Source: an uncultured Gammaproteobacteria bacterium (GTDB taxonomy: Bacteria > Pseudomonadota > Gammaproteobacteria > Pseudomonadales > Pseudohongiellaceae). From it: DNA of 64,000 nucleotides. Under the pieces are notes generated by a model that saw nothing but the letters and a program-made list of their open reading frames with translations, was not told the origin of the DNA and did not search any database. Location of the stretch: positions 1-64,000 of the forward strand of contig CAINTJ010000069.1 in NCBI GenBank assembly GCA_903853385.1, written 5' to 3'. A program made the translations under genes and the position numbers. How positions within the stretch are numbered: position 1 is the first letter of the stretch; every line of letters starts with the position of its first letter. This document shows, one piece after another, positions 34,136 to 51,638 of the stretch.

Positions 34136-36499
34136 ATGCTTACACCAAGCCAATATACAGCAACACTCAGTACGCTGCTGATGCTTGCTGGCCTGGCCGT
34201 CAGTGGCGACATGCAAGCACAGACGCCTGCTATGCCGGATTGGTCCGTGCTCGACAAGTATTGTGTGGGGTGTCACAACGAAGAGGATTGGGCGGGGCAA
34301 ATCGCCTTTGACAGTACCGACCGCAACAACATGCACAAGGATGCGGACCTCTGGGAACGTACTTTACGCAAACTGCGCAGTGGCATGATGCCCCCGGCCG
34401 GCGAGTCGCGGCCAGCACGCGCCATCCTGGATAATTTCAGCAATACACTGGCATTGGCGCTTGATGCCAATGCAGCAACACACCCCGGCCACAAGTCCTT
34501 GTCCCGTCTGAACAAGAAAGAATACATCAATGCCGTGCGTGATCTGCTGGCCTTTGACTTGGGCCAACTTGCCGCCTCGTTGCCGGATGACACCCGGCTC
34601 GATGGCTTCGACAACATGGCAGAGACGCTCACGATGTCGCCAACCCTGCTTGATGCCTATCTATCGATTGCGATGGAAGTGAGCCGGCAGGCTGTCGGCA
34701 ACCCCGATATCGGCGCCACCGATGTGCACTTCTACCGCAACGGCAAGGGCCCGCAACTGGCCCACGTTGACGGGCAGGCATTGGGAACTCGAGGAGGCAT
34801 GCAGATAACACATCAGTTTCCGCTCGATGCCGAGTATGTGATCCGCGTGAAAGCCGACATGCTGGAAGCAGGTTGGGTGAATCCCACTCATCACATGTTC
34901 TGGTGCAATGGGCCGGCAGTAACAGTTTCCTTCAACGGTGTGCGCATCCCTGTGGAGGAATGGCAGCAGTTCCGCGTCAGTGTTCCTGCTGGCAAACAGC
35001 AGTTGTCAGTCGCTCTGCTCGACGACAAGCGCTGTGCCGGCGTGGGTGAAACCTACCTGGGCCAGGCGCTCGAATCACCCAACGGCGCGATCGAGGAGAT
35101 CGAGATCCAGGGCCCTTACAATGGCAAGCGCGATACCGGCAGTGCGAGCTACGCCGCCATTTTCGGTTGTCAGCCGCAAAAGGCCAGCGAGGAAGAACAC
35201 TGTGCGCGTGACATTCTGAGCTACCTCGCCACGCGTGGTTGGCGTCGACTGGTCACCCCCGATGACAGCGCGCTCGACCCCTTGCTGGCTCAATACCGCT
35301 ATGCGCGCGACACGGAACACGGTGATTTCCATCTCGGCATCCAGTATGCGCTGGCACGCCTGTTGGTCGACCCCCGCTTCCTCTATCGCTTCGAACAGGA
35401 GCCGGCAGGACTCAACGCAGGTGCAACTTATGCCATTGGCGACTTCGAATTGGCGTCGCGCCTGTCATTCTTCCTGTGGAGCAGCATTCCCGACGAAGCG
35501 CTGCTGCAAGCTGCCGCTGAAGGCAGGCTTTCCAAAGCAGACACCTTGCAAGTCGAAGTGACGCGCATGCTGGCTGATCCAAAGGCAAGAACATTGGTCG
35601 ACAATTTCGCGGGTCAGTGGCTGAAGTTGCGTGCGCTCGCCGACGCCGCGCCGATTGACAAAGAGTTCGACGAGGATCTGCGCCGCGCCATGATTGATGA
35701 AACCACGCTGTTCTTTGCCAGCATCGTGCAAGGCGGTGGCAGCATGCTGACCCTGCTTGATGCTGATTACACTTTTCTCAACGAACGGCTGGCCCGCCAT
35801 TACGGCATTGCCGGCATCAAGGGCAGTTTCATGCGCCGCGTGCAGTTGCCGCCGGACAGCCCGCGTCGCGGCTTGCTCGGACAGGCAAGCCTGCTCACTG
35901 CCAACTCGATTCCCAATCGCACCTCGCCGGTGGTGCGCGGCGTATGGATCGTGGAAAACCTGCTCGGGGCACCGATTCCCAATCCGCCACCCGGCGTTGA
36001 AGTCAATCTCGACAAACCCTCGGCGAGTTCAGGGCGCGTCGTCGACACCTTGCGCGCACGACTGCAGCAGCATCGCGCCGATCCCGTGTGCGGCAGTTGC
36101 CACGGCATCATGGACCCCATCGGACTCGCGCTTGAAAACTTCGATCTCACCGGACGCTGGCGCGACACCGACAACGGCAAACCGGTCGATCCGCATGCGG
36201 TGATGGCCGACGGCACCGCGCTTGACGGTGCCGTCGCCTTGCGTGGCGCCCTGCTCGCGCGCAGCGAAGCTTTCATCAACACCTTGAGCGGCAAGCTGCT
36301 CAGTTACGCGCTCGGTCGCGAACTGTCACTCGATGATGGTCCCAGCGTGCGCCGCATTGTGCGCACGGCAGAACAGAACAACTACAGTTTTGCGGCATTG
36401 ATCAGCGGCATCGTCAGTAGTGAGCCGTTCCGTTTGCGGGTGGCCGATGGTCACGTGAATGCCACACCTGGCAACCAGACCGCTTCGGCGCGGCCATGA
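34136..36499 (+). CDS. exported di-haem DUF1592-type (PSD-domain) protein, copy 1
   Basis: 787 residues with a signal peptide ending MQAQ. Haem c site CVGCH (C43, C46, H47) is followed by DUF1587 (SRLNKKEYINAVRDLL), a beta-rich insert with LGTRGGMQITHQFPLDAEYVI, then DUF1595, DUF1592 (LASRLSFFLWSSIPDEALL), DUF1588 (LLTANSIPNRTSPVVRGVW) and DUF1585 (LLSYALGRELSLDDG). A second site CGSCH (C652, C655, H656) precedes MDPIGLALENFD. Two haems and the full planctomycete-style domain set imply a periplasmic redox enzyme of unknown reaction. The DUF1552 gene follows after 13 nt. Confidence 0.85.
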   Translation: MLTPSQYTATLSTLLMLAGLAVSGDMQAQTPAMPDWSVLDKYCVGCHNEEDWAGQIAFDSTDRNNMHKDADLWERTLRKLRSGMMPPAGESRPARAILDNFSNTLALALDANAATHPGHKSLSRLNKKEYINAVRDLLAFDLGQLAASLPDDTRLDGFDNMAETLTMSPTLLDAYLSIAMEVSRQAVGNPDIGATDVHFYRNGKGPQLAHVDGQALGTRGGMQITHQFPLDAEYVIRVKADMLEAGWVNPTHHMFWCNGPAVTVSFNGVRIPVEEWQQFRVSVPAGKQQLSVALLDDKRCAGVGETYLGQALESPNGAIEEIEIQGPYNGKRDTGSASYAAIFGCQPQKASEEEHCARDILSYLATRGWRRLVTPDDSALDPLLAQYRYARDTEHGDFHLGIQYALARLLVDPRFLYRFEQEPAGLNAGATYAIGDFELASRLSFFLWSSIPDEALLQAAAEGRLSKADTLQVEVTRMLADPKARTLVDNFAGQWLKLRALADAAPIDKEFDEDLRRAMIDETTLFFASIVQGGGSMLTLLDADYTFLNERLARHYGIAGIKGSFMRRVQLPPDSPRRGLLGQASLLTANSIPNRTSPVVRGVWIVENLLGAPIPNPPPGVEVNLDKPSASSGRVVDTLRARLQQHRADPVCGSCHGIMDPIGLALENFDLTGRWRDTDNGKPVDPHAVMADGTALDGAVALRGALLARSEAFINTLSGKLLSYALGRELSLDDGPSVRRIVRTAEQNNYSFAALISGIVSSEPFRLRVADGHVNATPGNQTASARP

Positions 36500-36512
36500 T
36501 GAGGACTCCTCC

Positions 36513-37787
36513 ATGTTTTTTATGACACGCAAAGCTCTTTCACGTCGCACACTGTTGCGAGGTGCCGGCAGCGCGCTTGCCTTGCCGCTGCTCGACGCCA
36601 TGATTCCCGCAGGCGTGCATGCTGCACCCTTGCCGAAGCCGCGTGTGGCCTGCATGTACATGGCGCATGGCGCCATCATGAATCAGTGGACGCCGGCCGG
36701 TGAGGAGCGTGACTTCACCTTGTCGCCCACGCTGGCTTCCCTCGCCCGGCACCGCGACTATCTAACAGTGGTCAGCGATCTGGATTTGTCGGCCGCACGG
36801 GTCGGCCCGAATTCTGCTGGCGACAACCACAACCGTTCCTCTGCCTGCTGGCTCACTGCCTCACCGGTGCGCAAGGGACCAACGCCGTGTTCGTTCGACC
36901 AGCTGGTGGCGCAGCGCATCGGGCAACAGAATGCCTTGCCTTCACTCGAACTCGCACTCGACGGCGGTGTATCGATTTCATTCCTGACACCGACGACAGC
37001 ATTGCCGATGGAGCTGAATCCGCGGGTCGTGTTCGAGCGACTGTTTGGCACCGCCAGCAATGCCCAGGAACGTGCCATGCGAATGCGTCAATCTACCAGT
37101 CTGCTCGACTCGCTTGGCGGTCAGATTGCCGGATTGCAGAACCAGCTGCCCGCCTCCGATCGCGAACGGCTCGACCGTTATCTGCACGACCTGCGCGAGA
37201 TTGAGCGTCGTCTCGAACTGGGCAGCACCAAGTTGACCGATGGCATCGACATGCCGACCAAACCGGTCGGAATTCCCGACGATTTCGAGGCACATGCGCA
37301 CCTGATGATCGATTTGATTGCGTTGGCATGGCAAGCAGACCTCACGCGCGTTTCAACGTTGTTGCTGACGCGGGAACTGGGCAATACCGTGTTTCCCAAA
37401 AGCGGCATCAATGAACCCCACCATGCCTGTTCGCATCATTCCGAATCACCTGACAAGATCGCACTTTATGCGCGCATGAATGCCTATCACACACAGGCGC
37501 TGCTCGCTTACACCTTGGAACGCCTGCGCTCGTCACCGGATGGCGACGGCAACCTGCTCGACCATTCGCTGGTGCTCTATGGCAGTGGCATGAGCAATTC
37601 CAACAACCACGATCATGATCCCTTGCCGCTGGTACTGGCAGGCAAGGCCTCGGGTCGTGTGAAAGGCGGGCGCCACATTCGGGCCGGCCGCGGCACGCCG
37701 ATGGCCAACCTGCTGTTGGGCATGCTCGATGCACTCGACATACCGGCTGACTCTTTCGGTGAAAGCAGCGGGAGGATCATCCTGTGA
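36513..37787 (+). CDS. Tat-exported DUF1552 protein, copy 1
   Basis: 424 residues from the ATG at 36513. A twin-arginine signal (SRRTLLRGAGSALALPLLDA) precedes the DUF1552 domain. Conserved His clusters are N300-E-P-H-H-x3-H-H (NEPHHACSHH) and GSGMSNSNNHDHD near the C-terminus, matching copy 2. Tat export suggests a cofactor or metal acquired in the cytoplasm. DUF1552 resembles the DUF1501/alkaline-phosphatase-like superfamily, but no activity is known. It almost always accompanies a DUF1592-type protein. Its last bases overlap the GTG start of the ankyrin gene. Confidence 0.85.
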   Translation: MFFMTRKALSRRTLLRGAGSALALPLLDAMIPAGVHAAPLPKPRVACMYMAHGAIMNQWTPAGEERDFTLSPTLASLARHRDYLTVVSDLDLSAARVGPNSAGDNHNRSSACWLTASPVRKGPTPCSFDQLVAQRIGQQNALPSLELALDGGVSISFLTPTTALPMELNPRVVFERLFGTASNAQERAMRMRQSTSLLDSLGGQIAGLQNQLPASDRERLDRYLHDLREIERRLELGSTKLTDGIDMPTKPVGIPDDFEAHAHLMIDLIALAWQADLTRVSTLLLTRELGNTVFPKSGINEPHHACSHHSESPDKIALYARMNAYHTQALLAYTLERLRSSPDGDGNLLDHSLVLYGSGMSNSNNHDHDPLPLVLAGKASGRVKGGRHIRAGRGTPMANLLLGMLDALDIPADSFGESSGRIIL

Positions 37788-39436
37788 AGCGAAACTTTTG
37801 CCACGGTCCTTGCTATTGCCTACTGCTGTGTATGCTTGCCCAGGCGCAGGCAGCCGAAGTCACGACCATCCTCCGCGTGCCTGCCGCCGGCGCAGTGAAA
37901 GTGTCAGCGCTGGCCACTGCCACCATGCAGCGCGATGGCGCACGAGTAATGGCCTTGCTCAATGCTGAAGGCGCACTCGACGTCAATGCGCCCGGCCCCG
38001 AAGGCAGCAGCGCGTTGCATTGGGCAGTGCGCTACGGTGATCTTGGCACTGCCCGCCGCCTGGCCACAGCCGGAGCCAATCTCAATCTGGCCAATCCCTA
38101 TGGCGCACGGCCACTGCAACTGGCAATCGAAAACGGCCATGCGGAACTGGTTGGCTGGCTGCTGGATGCCGGTGCTGATCCCGCTGCACGCGATCTGGCC
38201 GGCGAGCCGGTGTTGTTCCTCGCGGCCGGTCTGGGCGATACCACAACCATCAAGGCCTTGCTGGCCCACGGAGCAACTGTAGATCAGGAAGACCTCGTCT
38301 ATGGTGAAACGGCATTGATGGTGGCGGTGCGCAGCGGACAGTACGCTGCTGCCGGGGTGTTGCTTGCCGCCGGTGCCAACGTCAATCGGCAGACGCGTAA
38401 CACCGATGTCATGCCCGGGCGCGACAGAAAATTCGTAGACCCTAGCGAGATCCCCGGCTCACTGACTACTGGCGTGGGCCTGATCCGTGGCGGCTGGCCG
38501 GAGCGTGGCGTGCGCCAGCCCTTGGCGGGAGCAAAAACTCCGCTGCACTACGCGACGCGCATGGGCGACCTGGCGCTGACCCAATTGCTGGTGAAGGCCG
38601 GCGCTGATCTCAACGCCCGCGATGCTAACGGCATGAGTCCACTGGTCAATGCCATCATCAATACCAACATCGTGGCGCTGCATCCTGAAGTGCAGGGTCA
38701 CCTGGGCGTGGCATCGTGGCTGGTGGAGGCCGGTGCCGATGTCAATGCCGAGGACTGGTATGGCGAGACACCACTGTGGGCGGCCATCGACATGCGTAAC
38801 CTCATCTATCGCAACGTCAGCACCACTGACAATAATGTGAATCGCAACACGGCCTTGGCACTGATCAAGCAGTTACTTGAACGTGGCGCCAACCCCAACA
38901 TGCGTGTGCGCGAATACCCGCCTTCCCGCCAATTCATTCTCGGCGTCGGCTCGGTGGAGTGGGTGGACATCAGCGGACAAACCGCCTTCATGCGCGCCGC
39001 CCGTGCCGGTGATCTCACAGTGCTGCACTTGTTGCTGGACAAGGGCGCTGACCCCAACCTCAGCACCTTCAACGGCACCAATGCCCTCATGCTGGCGGCC
39101 GGTGTCAACTTCGCTGCCGGTGAAACCTATACCGAAGGTGAAGCGGCATTATTGGAAACGGTGAAGCTGACACATGCACTTGGCAACGACATCAACGCAG
39201 TTAACACGCTGGGCTTGCAGGCCATGCATGGCGCTGCCAACCGGGGCGCCAATGACATCGTCCGCTACCTTGCCGAACACGGGGCCGAGCTGGATCGCGC
39301 GGACCAGCAGGGTCGCACACCGATCATCTGGTCGCAGGGCCAGTATCTGCCCTCGCGCCCGCTGATCCCCAAGCCTGAGACCACCGCACTGATCAGTTCC
39401 TACATGGCCAACAAAACAGTGCAGGTCCATCCTTGA
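37784..39436 (+). CDS. exported ankyrin-repeat protein, cassette 1
   Basis: 550 residues from a GTG that overlaps the DUF1552 stop (GTGA). A signal peptide ends AQAQAAE. At least eight ankyrin repeats are recognisable by the G-A-D/N-x-N turn (AGANLNLAN, AGADPAARD, AGANVNRQT, AGADLNARD, AGADVNAED, RGANPNMRV, KGADPNLST). Long insertions between repeats match those of the second ankyrin protein. An exported ankyrin solenoid is probably a scaffold for the cassette's haem and Tat proteins in the periplasm; that is inference. Confidence 0.88.
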   Translation: MKRNFCHGPCYCLLLCMLAQAQAAEVTTILRVPAAGAVKVSALATATMQRDGARVMALLNAEGALDVNAPGPEGSSALHWAVRYGDLGTARRLATAGANLNLANPYGARPLQLAIENGHAELVGWLLDAGADPAARDLAGEPVLFLAAGLGDTTTIKALLAHGATVDQEDLVYGETALMVAVRSGQYAAAGVLLAAGANVNRQTRNTDVMPGRDRKFVDPSEIPGSLTTGVGLIRGGWPERGVRQPLAGAKTPLHYATRMGDLALTQLLVKAGADLNARDANGMSPLVNAIINTNIVALHPEVQGHLGVASWLVEAGADVNAEDWYGETPLWAAIDMRNLIYRNVSTTDNNVNRNTALALIKQLLERGANPNMRVREYPPSRQFILGVGSVEWVDISGQTAFMRAARAGDLTVLHLLLDKGADPNLSTFNGTNALMLAAGVNFAAGETYTEGEAALLETVKLTHALGNDINAVNTLGLQAMHGAANRGANDIVRYLAEHGAELDRADQQGRTPIIWSQGQYLPSRPLIPKPETTALISSYMANKTVQVHP

Positions 39437-39588
39437 AGCAATGCCTGATACATGCAACGGCAACTAGAACATGACAAAGTTGATTTGCAAGCAGGCTTTC
39501 GGCTCGGCCTTGGGCAAATACAGCCCACATTCTTTCCATTTTTCAAAAATCGATTTGTGCTGTAATCATTGTTTGGACAACAGTGACT

Positions 39589-40719
39589 ATGCATATGCCG
39601 GTATTTTCCTCCCACACTTGCCAGTGCTTGCTGGCTTTGACTTTGCCGCTTTTTTGCATCGCCGAACCTGTGCTGGCGGAAGATAAACCAGCTCCACTCG
39701 ACAAAATGCTGTGGTCGCGCAGCATGGGGCAATCAGGATTGCGTCGTTTCTATTCGACGGACGCCGACCTTGGCGAAGTGCTAAACCGGCAGTCAAGCTA
39801 CCTGCTCGCCAACCGGCTGGAGACCAGCACCAAGGCCAGTACAAAAAGCAACTTTGTCGATCCGCAAGTTCTGGCTTCGTCGGTGGAAAGCTATGTGGGC
39901 CAATTCGATTCATTGCTACCGGTTGCCGGTAACCAGGAACATCTGTGGCTCCTGCGAACACTTGTCCGCACAGCGCAACGACTTGAAATAGACAAAGTGC
40001 AAAGCCGCAATAACCGTTACGATCTGGGCATGCTGTATGTCCCTGACCAGAACTCCTATTTTGGTCTTGGCCTTGCAATGGAGAACACTTCTGCAACTCT
40101 CAGATACACCACTGGCCAAACCGATGTGCAGGCTGTCGGACCACGTCTGGATGCGGGATTCAGAATCACACCGCTGCTGGCACTGGGATTGCGAATCGAG
40201 CAACTGCGTTTCACCGGTGACAACGCTGTTGCCGCGCGTGGCACGAGCGTCACCAGGCCGCTGGACTATCAGCGCAACTATATTCAGGTGGAGAGCATTT
40301 TGAGATTGTCCCCGCAGCAGTTGCACTGGTTGCCCGCAGGTTCCCAGTTGGGGGCATCGGCAGCCGTGTACCTGCTGGACTCGCGCTACCAACCAGAACT
40401 CAACAGTTTGGGGCAGGCAGTCACAGAGCCGTTCGGCAATCACGAACACCTGAAAATAATGCGGACGGGCATCTTCTACTCCACAACTTTGGCCGGCAAT
40501 ACAAAATGGAACCCTTATACCGAGCTGCTGCTGGATCGTGAATTTGACACCAACATGAGCCATCCACTCGACGATCGAACCGGTCTTATCTGGAAAGCAG
40601 GATTGGCGTGGCTGCCGGCACCTGGCAAGCGCATCTCGCTGGAATACCAGCGCTCACAAAGCCGCCATGATTTGCGTGAACGCGACAACTTCCTGGTTGT
40701 GGCAATTTTCGACTTCTGA
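39589..40719 (+). CDS. putative outer-membrane beta-barrel protein
   Basis: 376 residues from ATG 39589 (a GTG at 39583 and an ATG at 39595 are alternatives). A signal peptide (LLALTLPLFCIAEPVLA) is followed by a helical stretch (about 40-130) and then alternating strands (YFGLGLAMENTSATLRY, LLALGLRIEQLRFTG, RISLEYQRSQSRHD), ending VVAIFDF with a C-terminal Phe typical of BAM substrates. Not a family I recognise. The PQQ gene starts 8 nt later, so it may be the porin partner of that quinoprotein. Confidence 0.6.
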   Translation: MHMPVFSSHTCQCLLALTLPLFCIAEPVLAEDKPAPLDKMLWSRSMGQSGLRRFYSTDADLGEVLNRQSSYLLANRLETSTKASTKSNFVDPQVLASSVESYVGQFDSLLPVAGNQEHLWLLRTLVRTAQRLEIDKVQSRNNRYDLGMLYVPDQNSYFGLGLAMENTSATLRYTTGQTDVQAVGPRLDAGFRITPLLALGLRIEQLRFTGDNAVAARGTSVTRPLDYQRNYIQVESILRLSPQQLHWLPAGSQLGASAAVYLLDSRYQPELNSLGQAVTEPFGNHEHLKIMRTGIFYSTTLAGNTKWNPYTELLLDREFDTNMSHPLDDRTGLIWKAGLAWLPAPGKRISLEYQRSQSRHDLRERDNFLVVAIFDF

Positions 40720-40727
40720 AGACATCT

Positions 40728-42956
40728 ATGAAAACAATATTGGTGGTGATGGCATTCTATTCGGGTTTGGTGCTGGCGCAGACCGGAGATTCCGAGCGTG
40801 GCGCGCTGGTGTTCCAGGCATATTGCACCCGCTGCCATATCCCGATAGAAATTGAAAACCGGCTACGCAATGACTGGTTGGGCCACACTGGTGCACAATT
40901 GCTGCAACGTATCAGTGCCACCATGCCAGGGGAAAACGCCGGCTCACTGACTGCGCAGCAATACCTGGATGTCACGGCTTTTGTGCTTGCCATTGGCAAG
41001 GTTGAACTGCCGGCGACTGCACTCACGCCCAAGGCGCTGGCTGACTTGACGCTGGCACGCACGGTTGCTGCTACTGCCACTGCGGCGGTGCCCTCCACAC
41101 CCTGGCTGACACTCAACGGCGATCTTGCTTCTACCCGCTATACCGCACTTGCTCAAATCAATGCATCCAACGTAAAGGATGTGAAGGTCACCTGGCGCCT
41201 CAATCTGGACAGGTTTGGCCCCACCACTGAAGGCTCGAACGTCACCACACCCTTGATGGTCAATGGCACCTTGTATGCCACAGCCGGTGTCACGCGCGAC
41301 GTCATAGCGCTTGATCCTGCTACCGGTCAGTTGCTGTGGTTGTGGCGCGCGCAGGAAGGTGAGCGCTTCACCAACGCGCCGCGCAAAGGTTCCGGCAAGG
41401 GCCTGGCGTTCTGGACTGATGGCGTGCAGGACATCGTGCTGACAGTAACGCCTGGTTATTACCTGGTTGCCCTGAATGGCAAAACCGGATTGCCGGTGAA
41501 AAACTTTGGTGCGGGTGGCTGGGTTGATCTGCAGGCAGGCTTGCGACTCGGCCCCGGCCGCCAGGACCTCGATATCGGCCTGTCGTTTCCGCCACTGGTA
41601 GTTGACGATGTCGTGGTGGTCGGTGCGTCAATGGCACTGTCAACACGCCCGCTTTCTGCCGCCAACGTCAAGGGCGACATACGCGGCTATGACATCCACA
41701 GCGGCAAACTGCTGTGGACCTATCACACCATTCCCGAGCGCAACGAATTCGGTTCGGAAACCTGGCAAGGCAATTCTGCTTCCTACACTGGCAATGCCGG
41801 CGTGTGGGCGCCCATGTCGGCCGATCCAAAACTCGGGTTGGTCTATCTGCCGGTGGAAACACCGACTGGCGACTATTACGGCGGTGATCGTCACGGCAAC
41901 AATTTGTTTGGCAACTCGCTGGTGGCACTCGACTACCACACCGGCAAAATGAAATGGTATTTCCAGCTGACTCATCACGACATCTGGGACTGGGATCTGC
42001 CGGCAGCCCCCATCCTGGCTGATTTGCCCAACGGCCGAAAAGTGGTGGTGCAGCTCACCAAGCAGGCCATGGCTTATGTGTTTGACCGTGCCACCGGCGA
42101 GCCCGTATGGGATATTGTCGAAACAAAAGTTCCCCAATCCGACATTCCCGGCGAACAAACATCACCAACCCAACCCATCCCCAGCAAACCGGCGCCGTTT
42201 GATCGTCAGGGATTAACGGAAAATGACCTGATCAATTACACGCCGGAGCTGTTTGCCAAAGCGAAGCAGGCGGTAAAACCCTATCGCATGAGTCAACTGT
42301 TTTCGCCGCCGTCGCTGGCCGATGCACCCGATGGCACGCATGGCACGCTGCATTTGCCGAATGCCACCGGTGGCGCCAACTGGCAAGGTGGTGCCTATGA
42401 TCCCGATACCGGCATCCTGTATGTGCCGTCACGCACTGCGCTTACCCTGCTGGGACTGGTACCCGGTGGCACGGCCTCGTCTGTCCGCTATATCCAGGGA
42501 TTGCGCACCAGCCTCGATGTAGAGGGCCTGCCGATCATGCGACCACCTTATGGCCGCATCACTGCCATCGATTTGCAAAGTGGCAATCATTTGTGGTGGA
42601 TTCCCAATGGCGATACGCCCGCCAATATTCGTAATCATCCTGCGTTGGCGGGTGTGGAGTTGCCGCGTACCGGAGTCCCTAATCAGTCGGGGATCATGCT
42701 GACCAAGACCCTGCTGTTTTCAGGCGAAGGTCCTGGCGGCAAGCCGGTGTTGCGGGCGCACGACAAAAGTTCCGGCGACATCATCGCCGAGCTTGCGTTG
42801 CCGGGTGCGCAGACTGGCACGCCTTCAAGTTTCATGCATGAAGGTTCGCAGTACATCGTGCTGACGGTAAGCACCAAGGGCAGTAGTGAGCTGGTGGCAT
42901 TGAAACTGGCAGGTTCTGCTGCCAAAACTCAAACACCTGCTGCCGCAGCGGAATAA
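40728..42956 (+). CDS. PQQ quinoprotein with N-terminal cytochrome c domain
   Basis: 742 residues. The signal peptide ends VLAQ; a cytochrome c domain at about 20-95 has CTRCH (C33, C36, H37). A PQQ beta-propeller follows (about 120-725) with tryptophan-docking repeats (VIALDPATGQLLW, VALDYHTGKMKW) and the HHDIWDWDLPAAP motif of membrane-glucose-dehydrogenase-like quinoproteins. It lacks the vicinal Cys pair seen in the other PQQ enzyme. The haem domain is at the opposite end from that enzyme. It is a probable periplasmic dehydrogenase for a polyol, sugar or aromatic alcohol. Confidence 0.83.
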   Translation: MKTILVVMAFYSGLVLAQTGDSERGALVFQAYCTRCHIPIEIENRLRNDWLGHTGAQLLQRISATMPGENAGSLTAQQYLDVTAFVLAIGKVELPATALTPKALADLTLARTVAATATAAVPSTPWLTLNGDLASTRYTALAQINASNVKDVKVTWRLNLDRFGPTTEGSNVTTPLMVNGTLYATAGVTRDVIALDPATGQLLWLWRAQEGERFTNAPRKGSGKGLAFWTDGVQDIVLTVTPGYYLVALNGKTGLPVKNFGAGGWVDLQAGLRLGPGRQDLDIGLSFPPLVVDDVVVVGASMALSTRPLSAANVKGDIRGYDIHSGKLLWTYHTIPERNEFGSETWQGNSASYTGNAGVWAPMSADPKLGLVYLPVETPTGDYYGGDRHGNNLFGNSLVALDYHTGKMKWYFQLTHHDIWDWDLPAAPILADLPNGRKVVVQLTKQAMAYVFDRATGEPVWDIVETKVPQSDIPGEQTSPTQPIPSKPAPFDRQGLTENDLINYTPELFAKAKQAVKPYRMSQLFSPPSLADAPDGTHGTLHLPNATGGANWQGGAYDPDTGILYVPSRTALTLLGLVPGGTASSVRYIQGLRTSLDVEGLPIMRPPYGRITAIDLQSGNHLWWIPNGDTPANIRNHPALAGVELPRTGVPNQSGIMLTKTLLFSGEGPGGKPVLRAHDKSSGDIIAELALPGAQTGTPSSFMHEGSQYIVLTVSTKGSSELVALKLAGSAAKTQTPAAAAE

Positions 42957-43154
42957 AAGGGCTGGGGCGGTCTGGCAGTAAAACAGGAAATCGATGCAGT
43001 GATATTGGGCCAGGGCTTTGGCACCCAGATGCAGATGATGTTTGAGAAGGATTTGCTGGTATCCAATTCAGTTGACCTTGCACAGTGACGCAAACATCCG
43101 CTGAACAAACGCGTCAAGGAATTTTTCGCGCTGCTGTGTGCGCGATTTCTATGA
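42957..43154 (+). pseudogene. C-terminal remnant of a phospholipase D/cardiolipin-synthase-like gene
   Basis: Immediately after the PQQ gene stop, and in the same frame, the DNA encodes KQEIDAVILGQGFGTQMQ and MFEKDLLVSNSVDLAQ, then a TGA (43086-43088), then HPLNKRVKEFFALLCARFL and a stop. This is the typical end of cardiolipin synthases (DLAQW-x-x-RP-L-x-x-R); the TGA replaces the expected Trp codon. No HKD motif remains. A remnant of a lost neighbour. Confidence 0.65.
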
Positions 43155-43865
43155 GTCAAGCCAGGCCAGCAATGCCGCCGCAACCGCTGCCGGCCTTTCC
43201 ATGGTGCTCATGTGGCCGCACTCAGGAACCGCCACCAGCTGACTGCCTGCTATCAGTCTTGCCATGTCGTCATGACGTGCCAGCGGGCTCCAGCTGTCGT
43301 TGCTTCCGCATAACAACAAGGTGGGCAGATGCAGGTTTGCCAGCAAGTCGGTGCGGTCGGGCCGCTCCAGCAGCGCGCGGATTTGCGCTGCAAATTGCTC
43401 CACGCTTGCACGTGCAATCATCGCGTTGATCGCGTGCATCAGCGGCACGTCGGCCAGCCGTGGCGGCCACACCATGCCGTGCGACCACTCTTGTGCCATG
43501 GCCAGCATGCCGTGCTGCTTAGCGATCTCCAGCAGGCGATAACGACCTGTCTGCTCACGCTCGCCGGCCTCCCCTGGCGCCAGTGCCTGATAGCCGGTAT
43601 CCAGCAGTGCCAGTTTCGTCACGCGTTGCGGTGCACGCGCCATCACTTCCAGCGCAACGCGCCCGCCCATGGAATGGCCGGCCAACGCGAAGCGGGCGGG
43701 CGCACGTGCGAGAATGCGTTCTGCCATCGCGCCCAGCGAATCGCACAATTCATGCTTGGCTACCTGGATCTCGCTCACCGCACTCAAGGTAGCAAGCTGG
43801 TGTTGCCAGACTGCGTCGTCACACAACAATCCTGGCACTAGCACGAGGGCTTGGGTTGGTTTCAT
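43149..43865 (-). CDS. alpha/beta-fold hydrolase
   Basis: 238 residues from MKPTQALVLVPG at 43865. The oxyanion-loop region is VLVPGLLCDDAVW, the nucleophile Ser is in GHSMGGRVAL, the acid is probably the Asp in CGSNDSWSP, and the His is in PECGHMSTMERP. It has no signal peptide. It is similar in size to carboxylesterases and to enol-lactone or meta-cleavage-product hydrolases. The aromatic-cleavage genes next door make a pathway role possible but unproven. Confidence 0.82.
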   Translation of the reverse strand: MKPTQALVLVPGLLCDDAVWQHQLATLSAVSEIQVAKHELCDSLGAMAERILARAPARFALAGHSMGGRVALEVMARAPQRVTKLALLDTGYQALAPGEAGEREQTGRYRLLEIAKQHGMLAMAQEWSHGMVWPPRLADVPLMHAINAMIARASVEQFAAQIRALLERPDRTDLLANLHLPTLLLCGSNDSWSPLARHDDMARLIAGSQLVAVPECGHMSTMERPAAVAAALLAWLDS

Positions 43866-43987
43866 GGCCTCAACAACTATGCAATGGTGGGAAAAATTCG
43901 CCAACGTGATGTTAGCTGATTGGCGGCCATGACAGCGAGGCCGGGAACGCTATAGTATGGCTACACACATCCCGGAGCTTCCAGGCC

Positions 43988-45231
<1,244 letters not shown>

Positions 45232-45266
45232 GTTCACCACGTTCCCAAAACCACCAGGAGAATGTT

Positions 45267-45943
45267 ATGAGACTGTTTCGATTTTTGACCCGCTCATGGT
45301 GCAGCGCTACTGCGGCAGTGCTGGTTGTTTCCCTTGCCTGACTGCAAACGCCCAGCAGTTGCCAGCCGATATCAATGCCAATTCGCTGGCGCGTTTGCCC
45401 TACGTGCAGCGCAAAGACGCCGACGCTGGCGCCAAACGCTTGTTCGAAACTTTTGTGCGTGACAGCAATGCGCCCACTGACGTGATCAAGGGGCCGCTCG
45501 CGTTTGCAGCCTATAACAGCGCGGTGGCGACCGCGCTGCTCGATTTGCATGACGGCGCGGTGGTCAAGGGCAGCTTGAGCGCGCATGTGCGCGAGCTGGC
45601 CATTCTGGTGGCCTGTCGCGAGACCAATTTCGACCTTGAGTGGAACGGTCATGAACCCGCGGCGGTAAAAGCCGGTGTCGATCCCAAGGTCATCGAGCTA
45701 GTGCGCAACAAGGGATCGCTGACCGATGTCAATGACAACGATGCCGCCGTGATCCGTTTCGGTCGTGAAATGTTGAGCGATCGCAAGATGAGTGCCGCCA
45801 CGTTTGCCAAAGCCAGGACTTTATTCGGTGATCGCGCTGCGATGGATCTGGTTGCTGTCATGAGCACCTATGCAGTGAGCGGGTTCTACGCGATTGCTGT
45901 CGATGAACAGGTGCCCGCTGGCAAGCCACGGCTGCCCCGCTAA
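45267..45943 (+). pseudogene. exported carboxymuconolactone-decarboxylase-family gene with a frameshift
   Basis: The ATG at 45267 follows AGGAG by 8 nt and encodes 24 residues of signal peptide (MRLFRFLTRSW, then AAVLVVSLA) before a TGA at 45339-45341. The mature protein continues in the -1 frame as LTANAQQLPADINA to a stop at 45943. It includes the AhpD-like CMD core (SAHVRELAILVACRETNFDLEWNGHEPAA). Restoring one C in GCC(C)TGA would give a perfect signal peptide with an ANA cleavage site. It is therefore a one-base deletion or an assembly indel. A start at ATG 45296 would give a signal-less protein without a ribosome site. Decarboxylase versus peroxidase function is open; the CMD-motif cysteines are mostly absent. 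Confidence 0.75.
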
Positions 45944-46267
45944 CACCGCGTGCCGGTGCCAGCCGGCCACGCACCGGCATACCCTGCTGCCAGGCGTCAA
46001 ACCGGCGACCTGACTATCCTGATACCCCGCCCGGCTGAGACTCTGCTAGACAGCTTCCCTTACCACGACTATCCTCCCTCACAAGCAACAGTCAGAGTTG
46101 CATTAGTTCAAGCATTTTTGGGGAAATTTCCAGTCTGTATATCCGCCTCTGCGGATAATTGAAATTACCAACTTCAGTAAGTCGCACTACCCGTAGCAAG
46201 CATCGTTATGCATTGCTGCAGTACCCAGGCATCCAGCATGCCAATAAAAACAAAGGGGGGAGTTCGT
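45944..46267. other. 324-bp gap upstream of cassette 2
   Basis: No credible gene or RNA. It should carry the promoter of the ankyrin/DUF1592/DUF1552 operon; a GGGGGG run at 46255-46260 serves as ribosome site for the ATG at 46268. Confidence 0.5.
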
Positions 46268-47854
46268 ATGAGAGTTTCAGGTAGCAGAGTTTTACCAGCG
46301 ACGTTCGCCATGACAGTGGCGATAGTGGCCACCATATTTTTTGCACCATTGGCCCATGCTGCTGGCTCCATCGCCGCGGCGGCCCGTGCGGATGATTTGG
46401 CACAAGCACGCCAATTGATCAGTACCGGCGCCAACGTCAATGTGCCCGAGCCGGATGGCACCAGTGGACTGCTGTGGGCCGTCTACAACGGTTCACCGCC
46501 ACTCGTGCAGCTGCTGCTTGATGCCGGTGCCGATCCCAACCTGCCTAATTCCCTCGCCATCACACCCTTGCTGCAGGCCAGCCGTAATGGCAACGCCAGC
46601 ATGATCAGCGCGTTGCTGACCCATGGCGCCAAACTTGAAGACGGGCAACTTCGCACCGAACCAGCGCTGATGGCAGCCGCGCGAGCGGGCAACGTTGACG
46701 CAGTAACAGTGCTGCTCAAAGCCGGTGCCAACCCCAATGCCACCGAGCCGCTCGACCAGCAAACGGCGTTGATGTGGGCGGTGGCCGAAGGCCATCTGGC
46801 AGTTGCCACTGCGCTGCTCAACGCCGGCGCCAACCCCAACCTGCAGGCGCGCGTGTCCGAACTGACCAAACGCAAAAATGCCGACTTTCCGTCGGGTGGT
46901 TTTGCGGCGTTGCACTGGGCTGCACGCAACGGCGATGAGGCCATGATCAAGTTGTTGGTGCAGCACAAGGTCAACCTCAATGCCCGGAACGGCGATGGCT
47001 CTACCCCGATGATGCTGGCGATAGTCAATGACCGCTTCGACACCGCCAAGCTGCTGCTTGATCTCAAAGCCGATCCTGATGACGGCTCGCTTTATTTCAT
47101 CACTGAAATGCGTGATGCCACCACCGATTGGCGCGCGCGCGATGGAACCGTCTATCGGGCTGTCCACCCCAACCAACTGCGCGCACTGGATCTCACCCGC
47201 ATCCTGCTCGAAGCCGGCGCCTCTCCCAACACGCCTTTCATCGGGCAAATGCATAACGCATCCATGTGTTGCGACACCAACGTCTTTGCGACGGCGTTCT
47301 ATCGGGCTGCCATCGCCGCCGATGCAGATGGGTTGAAGTTGATGTTGGCGCACGGAGCCGATACCACCTGGAAACCCTCCAAAGTAGCCAAGGCCGACGA
47401 CCCGGTGGCAGGGGCGGCAACCACCATGAAACCCGAAGTCACCAAGACTGCACTGATGATGGCCATCACCGGCGGCAAAGGAGTTGGCGTTGCCGGCGGG
47501 CCCAACGATCTGCGCGAAGGTTTGCCCAAATTCCGCGAAAGCGGTGACCGCGAACCCCTGGATGCAGTCAACCTGTTGCTGCAAGCCGGTGCCGATGTAA
47601 ACGCACGCGGCCCCGATGATGAAACGGCACTGCATGTGGCGGCAAAAGCGCTGCATCCCGGCATTGTGAAAGCGCTGGTCGCGCGCGGCGCCGCACTGGA
47701 TGCCAAAGACAAAAACGGTCTGACTGCGCAGCAAGCAGTCGAGAAAATGGAAGCACCCAAGCCGAAAGAGGGTTTTTACTTCCAGGCGCCACCGGCGCAA
47801 CCCGCTGAAATAGCCGCACTGCTGAAGTCATTGTCCGGGGAGCACGCACAATGA
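46268..47854 (+). CDS. exported ankyrin-repeat protein, cassette 2
   Basis: 528 residues from ATG 46268. The signal peptide ends APLAHAAG. Ankyrin repeats run to the C-terminus (TGANVNVPE, AGADPNLPN, AGANPNATE, AGANPNLQA, KVNLNARNGDG, AGASPNTPF, HGADTTWKP, AGADVNARG, RGAALDAKD), interrupted by the same kinds of insert as the cassette 1 protein (a long QMHNASMCCDTNVFATAF segment). Its stop overlaps the DUF1592-type ATG (ATGA). The solenoid is probably a periplasmic scaffold. Confidence 0.88.
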   Translation: MRVSGSRVLPATFAMTVAIVATIFFAPLAHAAGSIAAAARADDLAQARQLISTGANVNVPEPDGTSGLLWAVYNGSPPLVQLLLDAGADPNLPNSLAITPLLQASRNGNASMISALLTHGAKLEDGQLRTEPALMAAARAGNVDAVTVLLKAGANPNATEPLDQQTALMWAVAEGHLAVATALLNAGANPNLQARVSELTKRKNADFPSGGFAALHWAARNGDEAMIKLLVQHKVNLNARNGDGSTPMMLAIVNDRFDTAKLLLDLKADPDDGSLYFITEMRDATTDWRARDGTVYRAVHPNQLRALDLTRILLEAGASPNTPFIGQMHNASMCCDTNVFATAFYRAAIAADADGLKLMLAHGADTTWKPSKVAKADDPVAGAATTMKPEVTKTALMMAITGGKGVGVAGGPNDLREGLPKFRESGDREPLDAVNLLLQAGADVNARGPDDETALHVAAKALHPGIVKALVARGAALDAKDKNGLTAQQAVEKMEAPKPKEGFYFQAPPAQPAEIAALLKSLSGEHAQ

Positions 47855-50295
47855 CTGTGCCGAAACATTGGGCGCTGGTCACTGGCATAGCCTTGACCGT
47901 ACTGGAACTGACTGCCAGCGCGGCCGACCAGCAAGCTCTACTGCGCAAGGAATTGGCAGATCAGTGGCCCATGCTCGACAAATATTGCATGAAGTGCCAC
48001 AACTACGATGACTTCAGTGGCGAACTCGCACTCGAAGGCATGAATCCCGACGATGTGTTCAAGAAACCGGCGGTGTTTGAACGCGTGCTGCGCAAACTCA
48101 AAATAAGTGCGATGCCGCCGCGCAAGCAACCACAACCAAGTGTTGATGAACGCAAGCACTTTGTCTCTGCACTTGAGCACAACCTGGATGCCGCTGCGAT
48201 GGCGCATCCTTATGCCGGCACCACGACGATCCATCGGTTGAACCGGGCTGAATATGCCAATTCGATACGTGATTTGCTGGGAGTTGATGTTGACCTCACC
48301 GAAATGTTGCCCAGCGATGGCGGCGATTATGGCTTCGACAACATCGCCGAGTTGTTACGCTCGTCACCGCTCTTGCTCGACCGCTACATGACCGTGGGTT
48401 TACGGGTGGCCGATCTGGCTTTGGGTAATCCGGAGGCGTCGGTGAGCGTCACCAACTACCGCATTCCGTTTGACACCACCCAGAACAAGCACCTCGCCGG
48501 TTTTCCACTCGGCACCCGCGGCGGCGTACGCGCTACCCACAATTTTCCGGCTGATGGCGAATACGTCTTTTCCGCTCGCCCCTTGCAAGGAATCGCGGAA
48601 GGCTATTTCGGCATTGAAGGCCATGATCGCCCGCATGAATTCATGGTCTATGTCGACGGCAAGATTGTCTACACCAGCGAGATCGGCGGCGCCGAGCAGC
48701 ACAAGATCAGCGTCGAACAGGGTTTCTATGATGTGATGCCGGTGGTGGACCAGCAACTGACCTCACCCAGAATTCCAGTGACTGCCGGGCCGCACGAAGT
48801 GGTTTTCTCCTGGCGCGAACGAGTGAGTGCAGAGCAAAATTCATGGCAACCAACCCTGCGGGACTCGCTGGAAATACATAACCCCTCCGGCATGCCACGC
48901 CTGGAAAAAGCCATGATTGCCGGCCCTTATGCCGCCACTGGCGTGAGTAACATGGCGCCGCGTGAACGCATCATGGTGTGTGAGCCGCAAGCAGCTGCCG
49001 AAGAAGAGTCGTGCGCGAAAGCAGTGCTGACCAATCTGGCACGGCGTGCCTTCCGTCGGCCTGCCACTGCCGACGACATCACAGCGCCGCTGGCGTTTTA
49101 CAACAACGAACGTGCCAGCGGTGCCGATTTTAATCAGGGCATGCGTGTTGCCGTCGCCCGAATGGTGGTGAGTCCGTTCTTCCTGTTTCGGGTAGAGACG
49201 GATGCCAAAGACGGGGCCCCCGGCGCCGATCATGCGGTCGACGGAGTGGCGCTGGCATCGAGGCTGTCATTCTTCCTGTGGTCTTCTGCCCCTGACGACG
49301 AACTGATGGCGCTGGCTCAAGCTGGCAAGCTGGAAGACGCTACTGTGCGTGAATCACAGGTACGCCGCCTGCTGGCCGACTCGCGCTCCAACTCCTTTGT
49401 CGACAATTTCGTCGGTCAGTGGTTGCAATTGCGCAACCTGGATATGCGCGCCCGTCCCGATCTTTTGATGTTCCCGGATTTTGATGACAACCTGCGGCAG
49501 TCATTCCGCAAGGAAACAGAAATGTTGTTTGCGTATGTGTTGCGGGAAAACCGCCCCGTGCATGAACTGCTGACCGCCAATTACACCTTTGCCGATGAAC
49601 GGCTGGCGCGCCACTATGGCATAGCCGGCGTCACCGGCGCCCGTTTCCGCAAGGTGGCTGTGACCGATCCGAACCGGTGGGGTCTGTTTGGTCATGGCAG
49701 CTTGCTGTCGCTGACTTCGGCGACCAGCCGTACCTCGCCCATCATGCGAGGCAAGTTCATCCTTAGTGAATTCTGGAACAACCCGCCGCCAGCGCCACCG
49801 CCCAATGTGCCGGCGCTGGAGGCGAGCGCGCCGCAGGACCGGCCCTCGACAGTGCGTGAACAATTTGAACGCCATCGCAAGGATCCGGCCTGCGCCAAGT
49901 GTCATGACGTGATTGATCCGGTCGGTTTTGCGCTGGAAAATTTTGATGCCGACGGCTCCTGGCGCAAACGTACCCGCGAAGGCCTTGCAATTGATGCCAC
50001 CGGCGTACTGCTCGATGGCACTGTCGTTGATGGTCCACAGGCGTTGCGGACAGCGCTGCTCAAGGACCCTGAGCTGTTTGCCAGCACGGTGACCGAGAAG
50101 ATGCTGGTTTACTCGCTCGGGCGCGGCCTGGATCCGCACGACATGCCAGTGGTGCGCAGCATTGTTCACAATGCGGCCCGGCACAACTACAGTTTGCTAT
50201 CGATTGTGCTGGGCATTGTCGACAGCTACCCCTTCCTCATGCGCACCAACAGTTCGTCTTCCGGCATCAATGCGGTCGCCACCGCAGGAGAATGA
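47851..50295 (+). CDS. exported di-haem DUF1592-type (PSD-domain) protein, copy 2
   Basis: 814 residues, same architecture as copy 1: a signal peptide ending TASAA, haem site CMKCH (C46, C49, H50), DUF1587 (HRLNRAEYANSIRDLLGVDVDL), the LGTRGGVRATHNFPADGEYVF insert, DUF1595, DUF1592 (LASRLSFFLWSSAPDDELM), DUF1588 (SLTSATSRTSPIMRGKF) and DUF1585 (MLVYSLGRGLDPHD). The second haem site CAKCH (C681, C684, H685) precedes DPVGFALENFD. The two copies clearly diverged long ago, so they may act on different substrates. The start and stop overlap both neighbours by ATGA. Confidence 0.87.
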   Translation: MTVPKHWALVTGIALTVLELTASAADQQALLRKELADQWPMLDKYCMKCHNYDDFSGELALEGMNPDDVFKKPAVFERVLRKLKISAMPPRKQPQPSVDERKHFVSALEHNLDAAAMAHPYAGTTTIHRLNRAEYANSIRDLLGVDVDLTEMLPSDGGDYGFDNIAELLRSSPLLLDRYMTVGLRVADLALGNPEASVSVTNYRIPFDTTQNKHLAGFPLGTRGGVRATHNFPADGEYVFSARPLQGIAEGYFGIEGHDRPHEFMVYVDGKIVYTSEIGGAEQHKISVEQGFYDVMPVVDQQLTSPRIPVTAGPHEVVFSWRERVSAEQNSWQPTLRDSLEIHNPSGMPRLEKAMIAGPYAATGVSNMAPRERIMVCEPQAAAEEESCAKAVLTNLARRAFRRPATADDITAPLAFYNNERASGADFNQGMRVAVARMVVSPFFLFRVETDAKDGAPGADHAVDGVALASRLSFFLWSSAPDDELMALAQAGKLEDATVRESQVRRLLADSRSNSFVDNFVGQWLQLRNLDMRARPDLLMFPDFDDNLRQSFRKETEMLFAYVLRENRPVHELLTANYTFADERLARHYGIAGVTGARFRKVAVTDPNRWGLFGHGSLLSLTSATSRTSPIMRGKFILSEFWNNPPPAPPPNVPALEASAPQDRPSTVREQFERHRKDPACAKCHDVIDPVGFALENFDADGSWRKRTREGLAIDATGVLLDGTVVDGPQALRTALLKDPELFASTVTEKMLVYSLGRGLDPHDMPVVRSIVHNAARHNYSLLSIVLGIVDSYPFLMRTNSSSSGINAVATAGE

Positions 50296-51638
50296 AAATG
50301 TTCATTTCCAAAAAGCACCTGAATCGCCGCCTGCTGCTCAAAGGCGCCGGCGTTGCCATTGCCTTGCCTTTGCTGGATGCGATGGTGCCGGCGCTTACCG
50401 CGCAAGCGGCCACTGCGGCTGGCGCTGGCGCCAGACTGCGCTTTGGCACTGTCTACGTGCCCAACGGCATTTACCCGGCTGACTGGCATCCGGACAAGAC
50501 CGGCAAAGATTTCGAATTCAAGCGCGTGATGAAACCGATTGAAGCCAATCGCAGCTACGTCACCACCATCAGCGGTCTGAAATCACCGGAAGGGCGGCAA
50601 GACATGGGGGGAATTCATATGGGCGCCAGTGCGGCGTTCCTGAACGGCGCCGGTCCGCTTAGCCAAAACGGCAATTTCAACCAGATCAAGTCCAAAAAGT
50701 CGGTCGATCAATACATCGCCGATGCGATTGCCGGCGACACGCCGATCCGCTCGCTGGAAGTGGGTACTGAAGACATGGGCACCGCCGCGGGTGCCTGTGA
50801 TAACTATCCCTGCATTTTTTATAATGCCATGGCCTGGTACGACGACGAAAGCCCGTTGCCGATTTCCATCAGCCCGCAAGTGACCTTTGAACGCATGTTC
50901 GGCGATCCTGGCACTGCTCAACAGCGTCTGCGCCGCCTGCAAACCAAGCAGAGCATGCTGGATTCGGTGCTGGATGAATCCAAGCGACTCGATCGCATGC
51001 TGGGCGCGGGTGATCGCACGCTGCTCGACGAATACCTGACCAACATCCGCCGCACTGAAAGCCAGATCCAGCGCCTGTCCTCACGCGCGGGCGTGATTGC
51101 CAACGCCAGCGACGGGCCGGTCGGCATTCCGGCCAATTTCGATGACCACATGACCCTCACCTACGACTTGCTGCATCTGGCCTGGCAGGGCGACATGACG
51201 CGTGTGTTCAGCTTTATGGTGGGCCACGAAGCCAGCGGTCGCAGCTATGCACACATTGGCGTGAACGAACCCCACCACAACGTATCGCATCACAAGAATA
51301 CGCCGGAGAGCATCGACCGCTATTCCCGCATCACCGGCTACCACATGCAGAAATTTGCCGCCTTTGTGGAAAAACTCCGCTCCACGCCGGAAGCTGACGG
51401 CAACCTGCTGGACTCCGCGTTGCTGTATTTCGGTGCCGGCATGAGCAATGGCCTGTTGCACGACCGCCATAACGTCCCCGCCTTGCTGGTGGGTCGTGCC
51501 GGTGGCCGCCTGCAAGGCAATCGCCATCTCAAAGCCAAGGAAGACGAGCCCACTTCCAACCTGCTGCTGGGCATGGCCGACCTGATGGGAGCTGAAGTCA
51601 AGACCATTGGCATAGCGACCGGTCGCATGGTCATCTAG
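50292..51638 (+). CDS. Tat-exported DUF1552 protein, copy 2
   Basis: 448 residues. The Tat signal NRRLLLKGAGVAIALPLLDA is followed by the DUF1552 domain. The conserved His cluster is N325-E-P-H-H-x3-H-H (NEPHHNVSHH), then an aligned TGYH and GAGMSNGLLHDRH near the C-terminus. Compared with copy 1 it has an extra stretch in the first half (about 95-160). Its translation is coupled to the DUF1592-type gene. Confidence 0.86.
   Translation: MKMFISKKHLNRRLLLKGAGVAIALPLLDAMVPALTAQAATAAGAGARLRFGTVYVPNGIYPADWHPDKTGKDFEFKRVMKPIEANRSYVTTISGLKSPEGRQDMGGIHMGASAAFLNGAGPLSQNGNFNQIKSKKSVDQYIADAIAGDTPIRSLEVGTEDMGTAAGACDNYPCIFYNAMAWYDDESPLPISISPQVTFERMFGDPGTAQQRLRRLQTKQSMLDSVLDESKRLDRMLGAGDRTLLDEYLTNIRRTESQIQRLSSRAGVIANASDGPVGIPANFDDHMTLTYDLLHLAWQGDMTRVFSFMVGHEASGRSYAHIGVNEPHHNVSHHKNTPESIDRYSRITGYHMQKFAAFVEKLRSTPEADGNLLDSALLYFGAGMSNGLLHDRHNVPALLVGRAGGRLQGNRHLKAKEDEPTSNLLLGMADLMGAEVKTIGIATGRMVI

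Follow-up and report, generated by a model that had tools for sequence, protein, structure and literature searches.

Linked genes for DUF1592-type dihaem, DUF1552 and ankyrin-repeat proteins in an uncultured gammaproteobacterium and their relatives in other bacteria

Two trios in the window and their copies in the genome

To characterize a three-gene cassette of apparently exported proteins, we analysed a 64,000-nucleotide (nt) stretch of DNA, hereafter the window, from an uncultured gammaproteobacterium of the Pseudohongiellaceae (assembly GCA_903853385.1, contig CAINTJ010000069.1, positions 1 to 64,000). The cassette encodes a DUF1592-type protein with two CxxCH haem-c sites, a DUF1552 (HXXSHH) protein and an ankyrin-repeat protein, and the original prediction, made from the letters of the window, had described two rearranged copies of it as a periplasmic redox system. 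Both trios, with the order, strand and tight coupling then described, were recovered from the open reading frames (ORFs) and by Pfam searches, copy 1 spanning positions 34136-39436 and copy 2 positions 46268-51638:

34136..36499, + strand: DUF1592-type protein, copy 1; CVGCH haem-c site at residue 43, DUF1587, CBM35-like beta-sandwich at about 194-330, DUF1595, DUF1592, DUF1588 with CGSCH at 652, DUF1585
36513..37787, + strand: DUF1552 (HXXSHH) protein, copy 1; twin-arginine signal, predicted alkaline-phosphatase/sulfatase superfamily fold
37784..39436, + strand: ankyrin-repeat protein, copy 1; signal-like N-terminus, GTG start
46268..47854, + strand: ankyrin-repeat protein, copy 2; signal-like N-terminus
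47851..50295, + strand: DUF1592-type protein, copy 2; haem-c sites CMKCH at 46 and CAKCH at 681
50292..51638, + strand: DUF1552 (HXXSHH) protein, copy 2; twin-arginine signal

ORFs were called by length alone, and their start positions are uncertain. Three of the four junctions in the two trios are 4-nt overlaps (GTGA between DUF1552 and ankyrin in copy 1, and both junctions of copy 2), and the fourth, between DUF1592 and DUF1552 of copy 1, is a 13-nt gap if DUF1552 begins at its likely start, 36513, within an ORF that opens at 36459. The copy 2 ankyrin ORF opens at 46208; downstream of a G-rich stretch lies the ATG at 46268, with which a clean signal-like peptide begins. In both copies the domains DUF1587, DUF1595, DUF1592, DUF1588 and DUF1585 were found in this order, all over the Pfam cut-offs, as were Ank and DUF1552 (PF07586; 272 and 273 bits in the two copies). 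The N-terminus of the copy 1 DUF1592-type protein matched PSCyt1 (24.7 bits against a cut-off of 22), and that of copy 2 gave a sub-threshold CBB3-type match only, with CxxCH present as in copy 1. The two CxxCH sites lie at matching places, as had been claimed (residues 43 and 652 in copy 1, 46 and 681 in copy 2), and two such sites were found in all 17 DUF1592 proteins of the genome with both ends visible. A twin-arginine search pattern was matched by 18 of 18 DUF1552 proteins of the genome with a visible start, the displayed string being an earlier RR in two of them, and a crude hydrophobic-stretch test revealed export-like signals in 16 of 17 DUF1592, 15 of 18 DUF1552 and 18 of 19 ankyrin proteins.

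Profile search of the genome (2.95 Mb in 143 contigs) revealed that two copies had been an undercount. The search yielded 20 PF07631 places, 19 PF07586 places and 92 Ank_2 matches, and the cassette places number 22: all three genes are visible in 17 (one with its DUF1592 gene truncated where the contig stops), and members are missing at contig ends in the remaining 5. The 92 Ank_2 matches fall in 19 ORFs, 18 adjoining DUF1592 or DUF1552 and one sitting at a contig end, and all 19 belong to the 22 cassette places. Of the complete trios, 13 end with the ankyrin gene and 3, copy 2 of the window among them, begin with it. The other copies are approximately 28-57% identical to copy 1 or copy 2 and are thus old paralogues, not a recent duplication. 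Trees were built with FastTree, with proteins longer than 1100 amino acids (aa) cut to their last 830 residues, plasmid proteins cut to their last 800 and DUF1592 ORFs shorter than 600 aa dropped. On a DUF1592 tree without close relatives, the 19 copies of the genome that reach 600 aa were scattered among other organisms (16 changes; 15 to 19 when shuffled), and for 16 of the 19 the nearest sequence outside the close relatives came from another genome. This scatter of protein sequences indicates that the copies are mostly pre-existing subtypes.

Co-occurrence, reordering and co-divergence

The survey of co-occurrence that the original prediction had proposed showed the three families together in several bacterial groups beyond chance. 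Across 29 genomes of the same genus, family and order, source genome included, the counts of DUF1592, DUF1552 and ankyrin correlate (Spearman 0.96 and 0.92), and Ank_2 matches per Mb average 25 in the 14 genomes with at least 4 DUF1592 places versus 0.35 in the 14 with at most 1; a further genome, with two DUF1592 places, belongs to neither group. As the 29 genomes are related, the count correlation is not independent evidence; outside two expanded genera (16 genomes) it is 0.51 (p 0.04). Two of the genomes, G013 and G026, have one DUF1592 and one DUF1552 match each, with 0 and 3 ankyrin matches. Within the class, PF07631 was matched in 8 of 274 sampled genomes, the source genome among them.

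Beyond these relatives, we collected 79 outside loci from the best 80 of 575 in a profile scan of a genome collection. Their titles name mostly Acidobacteriota and Gammaproteobacteria; the few remaining ones include Alphaproteobacteria and one Gemmatimonadaceae. Some titles, such as Acidimicrobiia or Akkermansia, seem dubious and carry no weight here. A DUF1552 gene lies nearby in 75 of the 79 and an ankyrin gene in 69, the latter overstating the general ankyrin rate because the scan profile had been built from DUF1592 proteins that were ankyrin-linked or beside a contig end. Among the 10 ankyrin-less loci, 7 run out of contig just downstream, L034 and L035 are also without DUF1552, and L075 is the pair alone. 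The ankyrin gene of the other 69 is last in 50, first in 10, upstream on the opposite strand in 7 and otherwise placed in 2. At places taken from Pfam-model matches, ankyrin was present in 17 of 20 and 15 of 20 in two samples hand-picked among the matches listed (2 of the 5 without it in the second sample run out of contig), and it was found in 1 of 5 plasmid stretches fetched. We make no use of a crude chance figure for the co-occurrence (about 1e-22), which takes no account of gene-neighbourhood structure. High copy number recurs in other organisms: whole-genome PF07631 counts in 16 genomes of the outside loci range from 2 to 43, with 43 places in G316 (the genome of L075) and 33 in G312 (the genome of L098). 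At L051, L142 and L146, two tandem ankyrin genes follow one DUF1592-DUF1552 pair.

All three genes are present in Novosphingobium KACC 22771, and the pair is present and ankyrin absent in the stretches fetched from Planctomyces SH-PL62, Sphingobium herbicidovorans, Novosphingobium RL4 and Pseudoalteromonas Bsw20308. Ankyrin is also absent from the acidobacterial loci L120 and L121, whose DUF1592 proteins score lower, from L122 and from the loci of large fused proteins L138-L140. On a DUF1592 tree of 149 rows (126 with ankyrin, 11 without, 12 unscored), ankyrin presence requires 5 changes (9 to 11 when shuffled), and one branch gathers eight distant ankyrin negatives, three ankyrin-bearing rows and one unscored row. 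The ankyrin-less loci and their clustering on the tree thus identify the DUF1592-DUF1552 pair as the wider core, to which ankyrin is a clade-wide addition or from which it was lost lineage by lineage, two histories that the tree does not tell apart. Gene order, scored on the same tree, requires approximately 20 changes (23 to 31 when shuffled); the trio block has therefore been reordered many times yet kept together.

We then compared the divergence of the three proteins. Protein distance matrices of the 16 complete trios of the source genome correlate with Mantel r of 0.74, 0.75 and 0.76, a level reached in 0 of 2000 permutations, and the correlation among 108 trios overall is 0.72 to 0.77. 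Because the 16 trios all come from one genome, their co-divergence is not explicable by shared species history. Co-occurrence in several groups, co-divergence within the genome and linkage through order changes together support the trio as an evolutionary unit of three products, which upholds the earlier claim that they belong together.

Predicted folds, fused modules and known relatives

A structural model of the DUF1552 protein, built from an alignment of 39 sequences (mean predicted local distance difference test score, pLDDT, 84.7), resembles the alkaline-phosphatase superfamily, with VIA at Z 17.0 (root-mean-square deviation, rmsd, 3.1 over 232) and 462 of 980 chains at Z of at least 8. 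The matching rows include sulfatases, nucleotide pyrophosphatases, phosphoethanolamine transferase domains and YejM, and the recognised Foldseek rows shown for the model are all of this superfamily. By its predicted fold DUF1552 is alkaline-phosphatase/sulfatase-like and not redox. The proposal of a redox system holds for one of the three proteins, the DUF1592 protein, exported and haem-bearing by motif, and not for its DUF1552 neighbour. Among the 39 sequences, the motif H-x-x-[ST]-H-H has invariant H304 and H308, S or T at 307, and H309 in 37; conserved residues of metal-binding kinds are H106, H304, H308, H309, H366, H388, D129, D199, D216 and D350. A DUF1552 profile run against the sequences of solved structures gave 4 weak rows (E of at least 1), which were rejected as relatives. 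DUF1552 thus differs from the alkaline phosphatase and formylglycine sulfatase superfamily, whose fold it is predicted to resemble, in having no convincing sequence relative in the PDB, in its conserved histidines and, as judged by sequence, in having no conserved acid in the first strand region.

The DUF1592 model (34-sequence alignment, mean pLDDT 85.0) contains a sole recognisable insert, residues ~194-330, which in this prediction is like CBM35, CBM36 and CBM6 carbohydrate-binding modules (CBM35: Z 8.8, rmsd 3.1 over 100); the helical remainder was barely probed, as only residues 191-330 were effectively compared with known folds. The DUF1592 profile found no relative among the sequences of solved structures, and rotavirus and similar top Foldseek rows (E above 0.02) were set aside as chance matches. 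Distant members of the family carry larger module combinations, listed here together with a small gene found beside DUF1552:

L110:1763-8236: giant DUF1592-module fusion with CBM26, glucose/sorbosone dehydrogenase propeller and cytochrome c; Pseudoalteromonas Bsw20308
L140:7459-14157: giant DUF1592-module fusion
L138:7547-11617: giant DUF1592-module fusion
L139:7831-11595: giant DUF1592-module fusion
L011:7806-8450, L015:6342-6917, L017:3202-3756 and L095:5543-6136: small gene beside DUF1552, also adjoining ankyrin in L011 and L015

In Pseudoalteromonas Bsw20308 and one more genome, the DUF1592 module is joined to CBM26 starch-binding modules, a glucose/sorbosone-dehydrogenase propeller and cytochrome c, and in two genomes it is joined to three CBM2 and cytochrome domains, with four CxxCH per protein. 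A DUF1552 gene comes after each giant fusion gene. Of the CBM2 fusions, L138 alone was tested: its cytochrome next to DUF1587 matches 7b21, the cytochrome domain of Cellvibrio japonicus Cbp2D (E 4e-6), and also 8q1v, a 'putative lipoprotein' (E 1e-10) that is probably a Teredinibacter domain. A PDB search with the N-terminal domain of copy 1, at E up to 10, turned up no cytochrome. Candidate electron partners lie beside some of the genes. In Sphingobium herbicidovorans, the DUF1592 protein has no haem site at its N-terminus, and the genes that come next encode cytochrome c' and cytochrome b561; this Sphingobium plasmid cluster of four genes (L109:6776-10922; L152:5929-10119) has a TonB receptor gene upstream, and in L152 the presumed DUF1592 and DUF1552 genes are annotated as hypothetical. 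The small gene of L011, the one member scanned, encodes a product that is weakly cytochrome c-like, below the Pfam cut-off. Downstream of a planctomycete pair lies a gene for a 3-keto-disaccharide hydrolase.

Two groups of described proteins resemble the cassette; these and the other published systems below are cited from excerpts of the papers named. In Verrucomicrobia and Planctomycetes, PSCyt3 genes usually adjoin a conserved family without an assigned function and reach high copy number in some genomes, and some PSCyt/PSD proteins carry carbohydrate-binding modules (He et al. 2017, PMC5615132). The same domain combinations in the haem protein, a neighbouring conserved family, high copy number and, in some, carbohydrate-binding modules are thus common to those genes and to ours, and the conserved family beside PSCyt3 would be DUF1552, a term indexed for the record of that paper but absent from its main text. 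The excerpts of that paper mention no ankyrin partner, whereas the present trio comes from Proteobacteria and Acidobacteriota and, in the sampled part of the family, nearly always includes ankyrin. The second group comprises Cbp2D, described as CBM2, X158, FN3, X183, DUF1587 and X132 (PMC8981238), and TERTU_2913 and TERTU_3803 of Teredinibacter turnerae. As in the window proteins, a cytochrome c site is followed by DUF1587 and a second CxxCH, and these proteins are exported and tied to polysaccharide use (PMC8981238, PMC12542752, PMC10916295); Cbp2D is important for growth on insoluble cellulose by a mechanism that is unsettled (PMC12542752). When the window proteins are set alongside Cbp2D by its domain description, X132 probably corresponds to the DUF1595-1592-1588-1585 stretch; they differ in having no CBM2, X158 (YceI-like) or FN3 domain in Pfam.

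Genomic neighbourhood and candidate functions

The genes neighbouring the window copies encode a tannase/feruloyl esterase family protein, a LigB-type ring-opening dioxygenase, a Rieske oxygenase, a FadL/TodX-type channel and pyrroloquinoline quinone (PQQ) dehydrogenases. Around copy 2 (window 43149-57000) lie genes for an alpha/beta hydrolase, the LigB-type dioxygenase, the Rieske oxygenase, an MFS transporter and the FadL/TodX-type channel, and positions 39583-40719, between the copy 1 ankyrin gene and a PQQ dehydrogenase gene, encode a 378-aa protein without a family (weak FadL/TodX-type match, E 0.03). The quinoproteins had been offered as a clue to the substrate, which fails genome-wide: 40 PQQ-type matches, merged by hand into 25 places, include 4 within 4 kb of a cassette (at most 2.4 expected) and 5 within 8 kb (at most 3.9 expected). 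Because they are no closer to cassettes than expected, they were dropped as functional partners. Tannase-family genes are weakly associated, with 3 of 7 places within 4 kb (at most 0.7 expected, P 0.02 uncorrected) and 3 of 7 within 8 kb (P 0.08), one of the seven being a sub-threshold fragment.

Neighbour clustering, in which the greedy choice of ORFs may have missed or invented neighbours, revealed no universal fourth gene. Possible subtypes are marked by a metallo-beta-lactamase-fold gene, a DUF6152-type gene and PQQ proteins. Of 101 places scored, 12 have the first of these nearby, and they group together on the DUF1592 tree (5 changes; 9 to 12 when shuffled), indicating that a fourth gene is preferred in at least one subtype; the metallo-beta-lactamase-fold gene was seen at L010, L018, L021, L022, L023 and L025 in the source genome and at L062, L089, L090, L102 and L106 elsewhere. 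Chaining brought 37 neighbour proteins from 23 loci (including L016:12458-12937 and L014:3109-4308) into one cluster, which mixes DUF6152 proteins, 2 of the 3 members scanned, with others.

Guided by the folds and the fusions, we tentatively favour the reading that the trio is an exported redox unit directed at carbohydrates, with ankyrin as its cognate partner. Its core, as conservation shows, is the DUF1592-type protein, with two c-type haem sites, and the DUF1552 protein. Through its CBM35-like domain the DUF1592-type protein would bind its substrate, a carbohydrate or a glycosylated molecule, and it would move electrons between cytochromes, soluble or in the membrane, and either this substrate or a partner sugar dehydrogenase. 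A non-redox step on the same substrate, such as the removal or handling of esters or oxidised sugars, may be carried out or assisted by DUF1552, with its unusual histidine-rich conserved set. In one large part of the family, the ankyrin protein would be dedicated to its own haem protein, holding it or maturing it, and the many diverged copies could provide parallel substrate specificities, by analogy with polysaccharide-utilisation loci. Linkage, co-divergence, export-like signals, haem-binding motifs, predicted folds and module fusions form the observed basis, from which we infer substrate class, electron direction, catalysis and ankyrin role.

Several observations weigh against a carbohydrate-directed unit. 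Both window copies lie among genes of aromatic type and not among glycoside hydrolases, and from 40 neighbours scanned at other cassettes no common substrate emerges; aromatic-type genes occur at a minority of these cassettes (L023 and L024 have tannase genes, L019 has a Rieske/vanillate-demethylase-like gene and L020 an RPE65-type gene), and a dihaem cytochrome c peroxidase/MauG-family gene (L023:1098-2381) lies within approximately 7 kb of a cassette. The source genome has no match for the 3-keto-disaccharide hydrolase family (PF06439) and 0 matches for PF03067, hence no AA10 lytic polysaccharide monooxygenase (LPMO), other LPMO families not having been sought; two of the known links to carbohydrates thus stop short of this genome. 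The CBM35-like match of the model is moderate and says nothing on the ligand, and the fusions belong to distant, ankyrin-less members. In DUF1552 no acid is conserved in the first strand region (39 sequences), and the catalytic residue is not established. Co-duplication of the block alone could yield the co-divergence.

The alternative nearest to the original prediction is that the cassettes oxidise aromatic or phenolic compounds outside the cytoplasm, serving tannin, lignin or quinate breakdown and fed by the adjoining quinoproteins. The aromatic genes around both window copies, those at L019, L020, L023 and L024 and the tannase-family places within 4 kb of cassettes all speak for it; set against them are the genome-wide placement of the quinoproteins, the fusions of the DUF1592 module, which point to sugars, and the scanned neighbours at most other cassettes, which are not aromatic genes (the rest of the scanned set is mixed or housekeeping: pyruvate dehydrogenase, malic enzyme, arginine decarboxylase, RecJ, FapA, MFS and TonB-type proteins). 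The aromatic neighbours first noted are therefore present, but at a minority of cassettes beyond the window, and on balance we regard aromatic oxidation as the general function as unlikely; some copies may have an aromatic substrate.

It is less probable again that the ankyrin gene is a linked passenger, with the DUF1592-DUF1552 pair working alone and the ankyrin protein acting elsewhere in the envelope. Pairs without ankyrin in the planctomycete, Sphingobium, Pseudoalteromonas and some acidobacterial loci would fit such a separation, but ankyrin linkage survives the repeated order changes on the DUF1592 tree, ankyrin divergence matches that of its own pair, and the source genome has no Ank_2 match anywhere else. 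Bacterial ankyrin proteins that serve a haem enzyme are on record in KatB-AnkB of Pseudomonas aeruginosa (Howell 2000), where AnkB is called periplasmic, and in Cj1386 with catalase in Campylobacter jejuni (Flint 2012; both via PMC3091734 and PMC3349705). A scaffold role for the ankyrin protein, as originally suggested, may be plausible, and the gene is missing from the more distant DUF1592-DUF1552 pairs. The partner in those systems is a catalase, and DUF1552 is not mentioned in the excerpts, whereas the domains of the present partner are DUF1592-type. That the haem protein handles peroxide, with ankyrin as an assembly factor of this kind, is a proposal that could also draw on the MauG-family gene near the L023 cassette but is very unlikely: the DUF1592 model showed no peroxidase or catalase fold over the residues effectively tested (191-330), some 20 diverged copies are unlike stress defence, and DUF1552 would be left without a role. 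Electron donation to LPMOs, as proposed for Cbp2D, whose layout of cytochrome, DUF1587 and second CxxCH is shared and whose isolated cytochrome domain can reduce LPMOs (PMC8981238), is highly improbable here, being strained by the lack of AA10 in the source genome and by Teredinibacter cytochrome domains that gave no electrons to their LPMO (PMC10916295).

Returning to the carbohydrate-directed unit, a far-reaching form of it, which we consider rather doubtful, would be an envelope machine of about twenty mutually specific trios per genome, working in parallel. In each trio, a dihaem oxidoreductase acting on carbohydrates would join an enzyme of alkaline-phosphatase fold, its metal site altered, and a matching ankyrin solenoid. 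Such a machine would perform LPMO-free oxidative breakdown of glycans or glycosides in place of glycoside hydrolases, and would have spread through Acidobacteriota and Proteobacteria as pre-diversified subtypes.

In the open-access literature, to which the search was confined (subscription papers and preprints lay outside it), we found no paper on the trio among the titles listed, and none that contains DUF1592 together with DUF1552 or with ankyrin. Bacterial strains with at least 20 ankyrin proteins are mostly host-associated, with one free-living (PMC3932732); 19 ankyrin ORFs of one genome, all in an exported haem-protein cassette, represent a quite different use for ankyrin proteins. Finally, the fusions and folds tie the puzzle of the PSCyt3 neighbour (PMC5615132) to that of Cbp2D (PMC12542752), as both are set out in the excerpts, and give them a named candidate partner, an alkaline-phosphatase-like protein.

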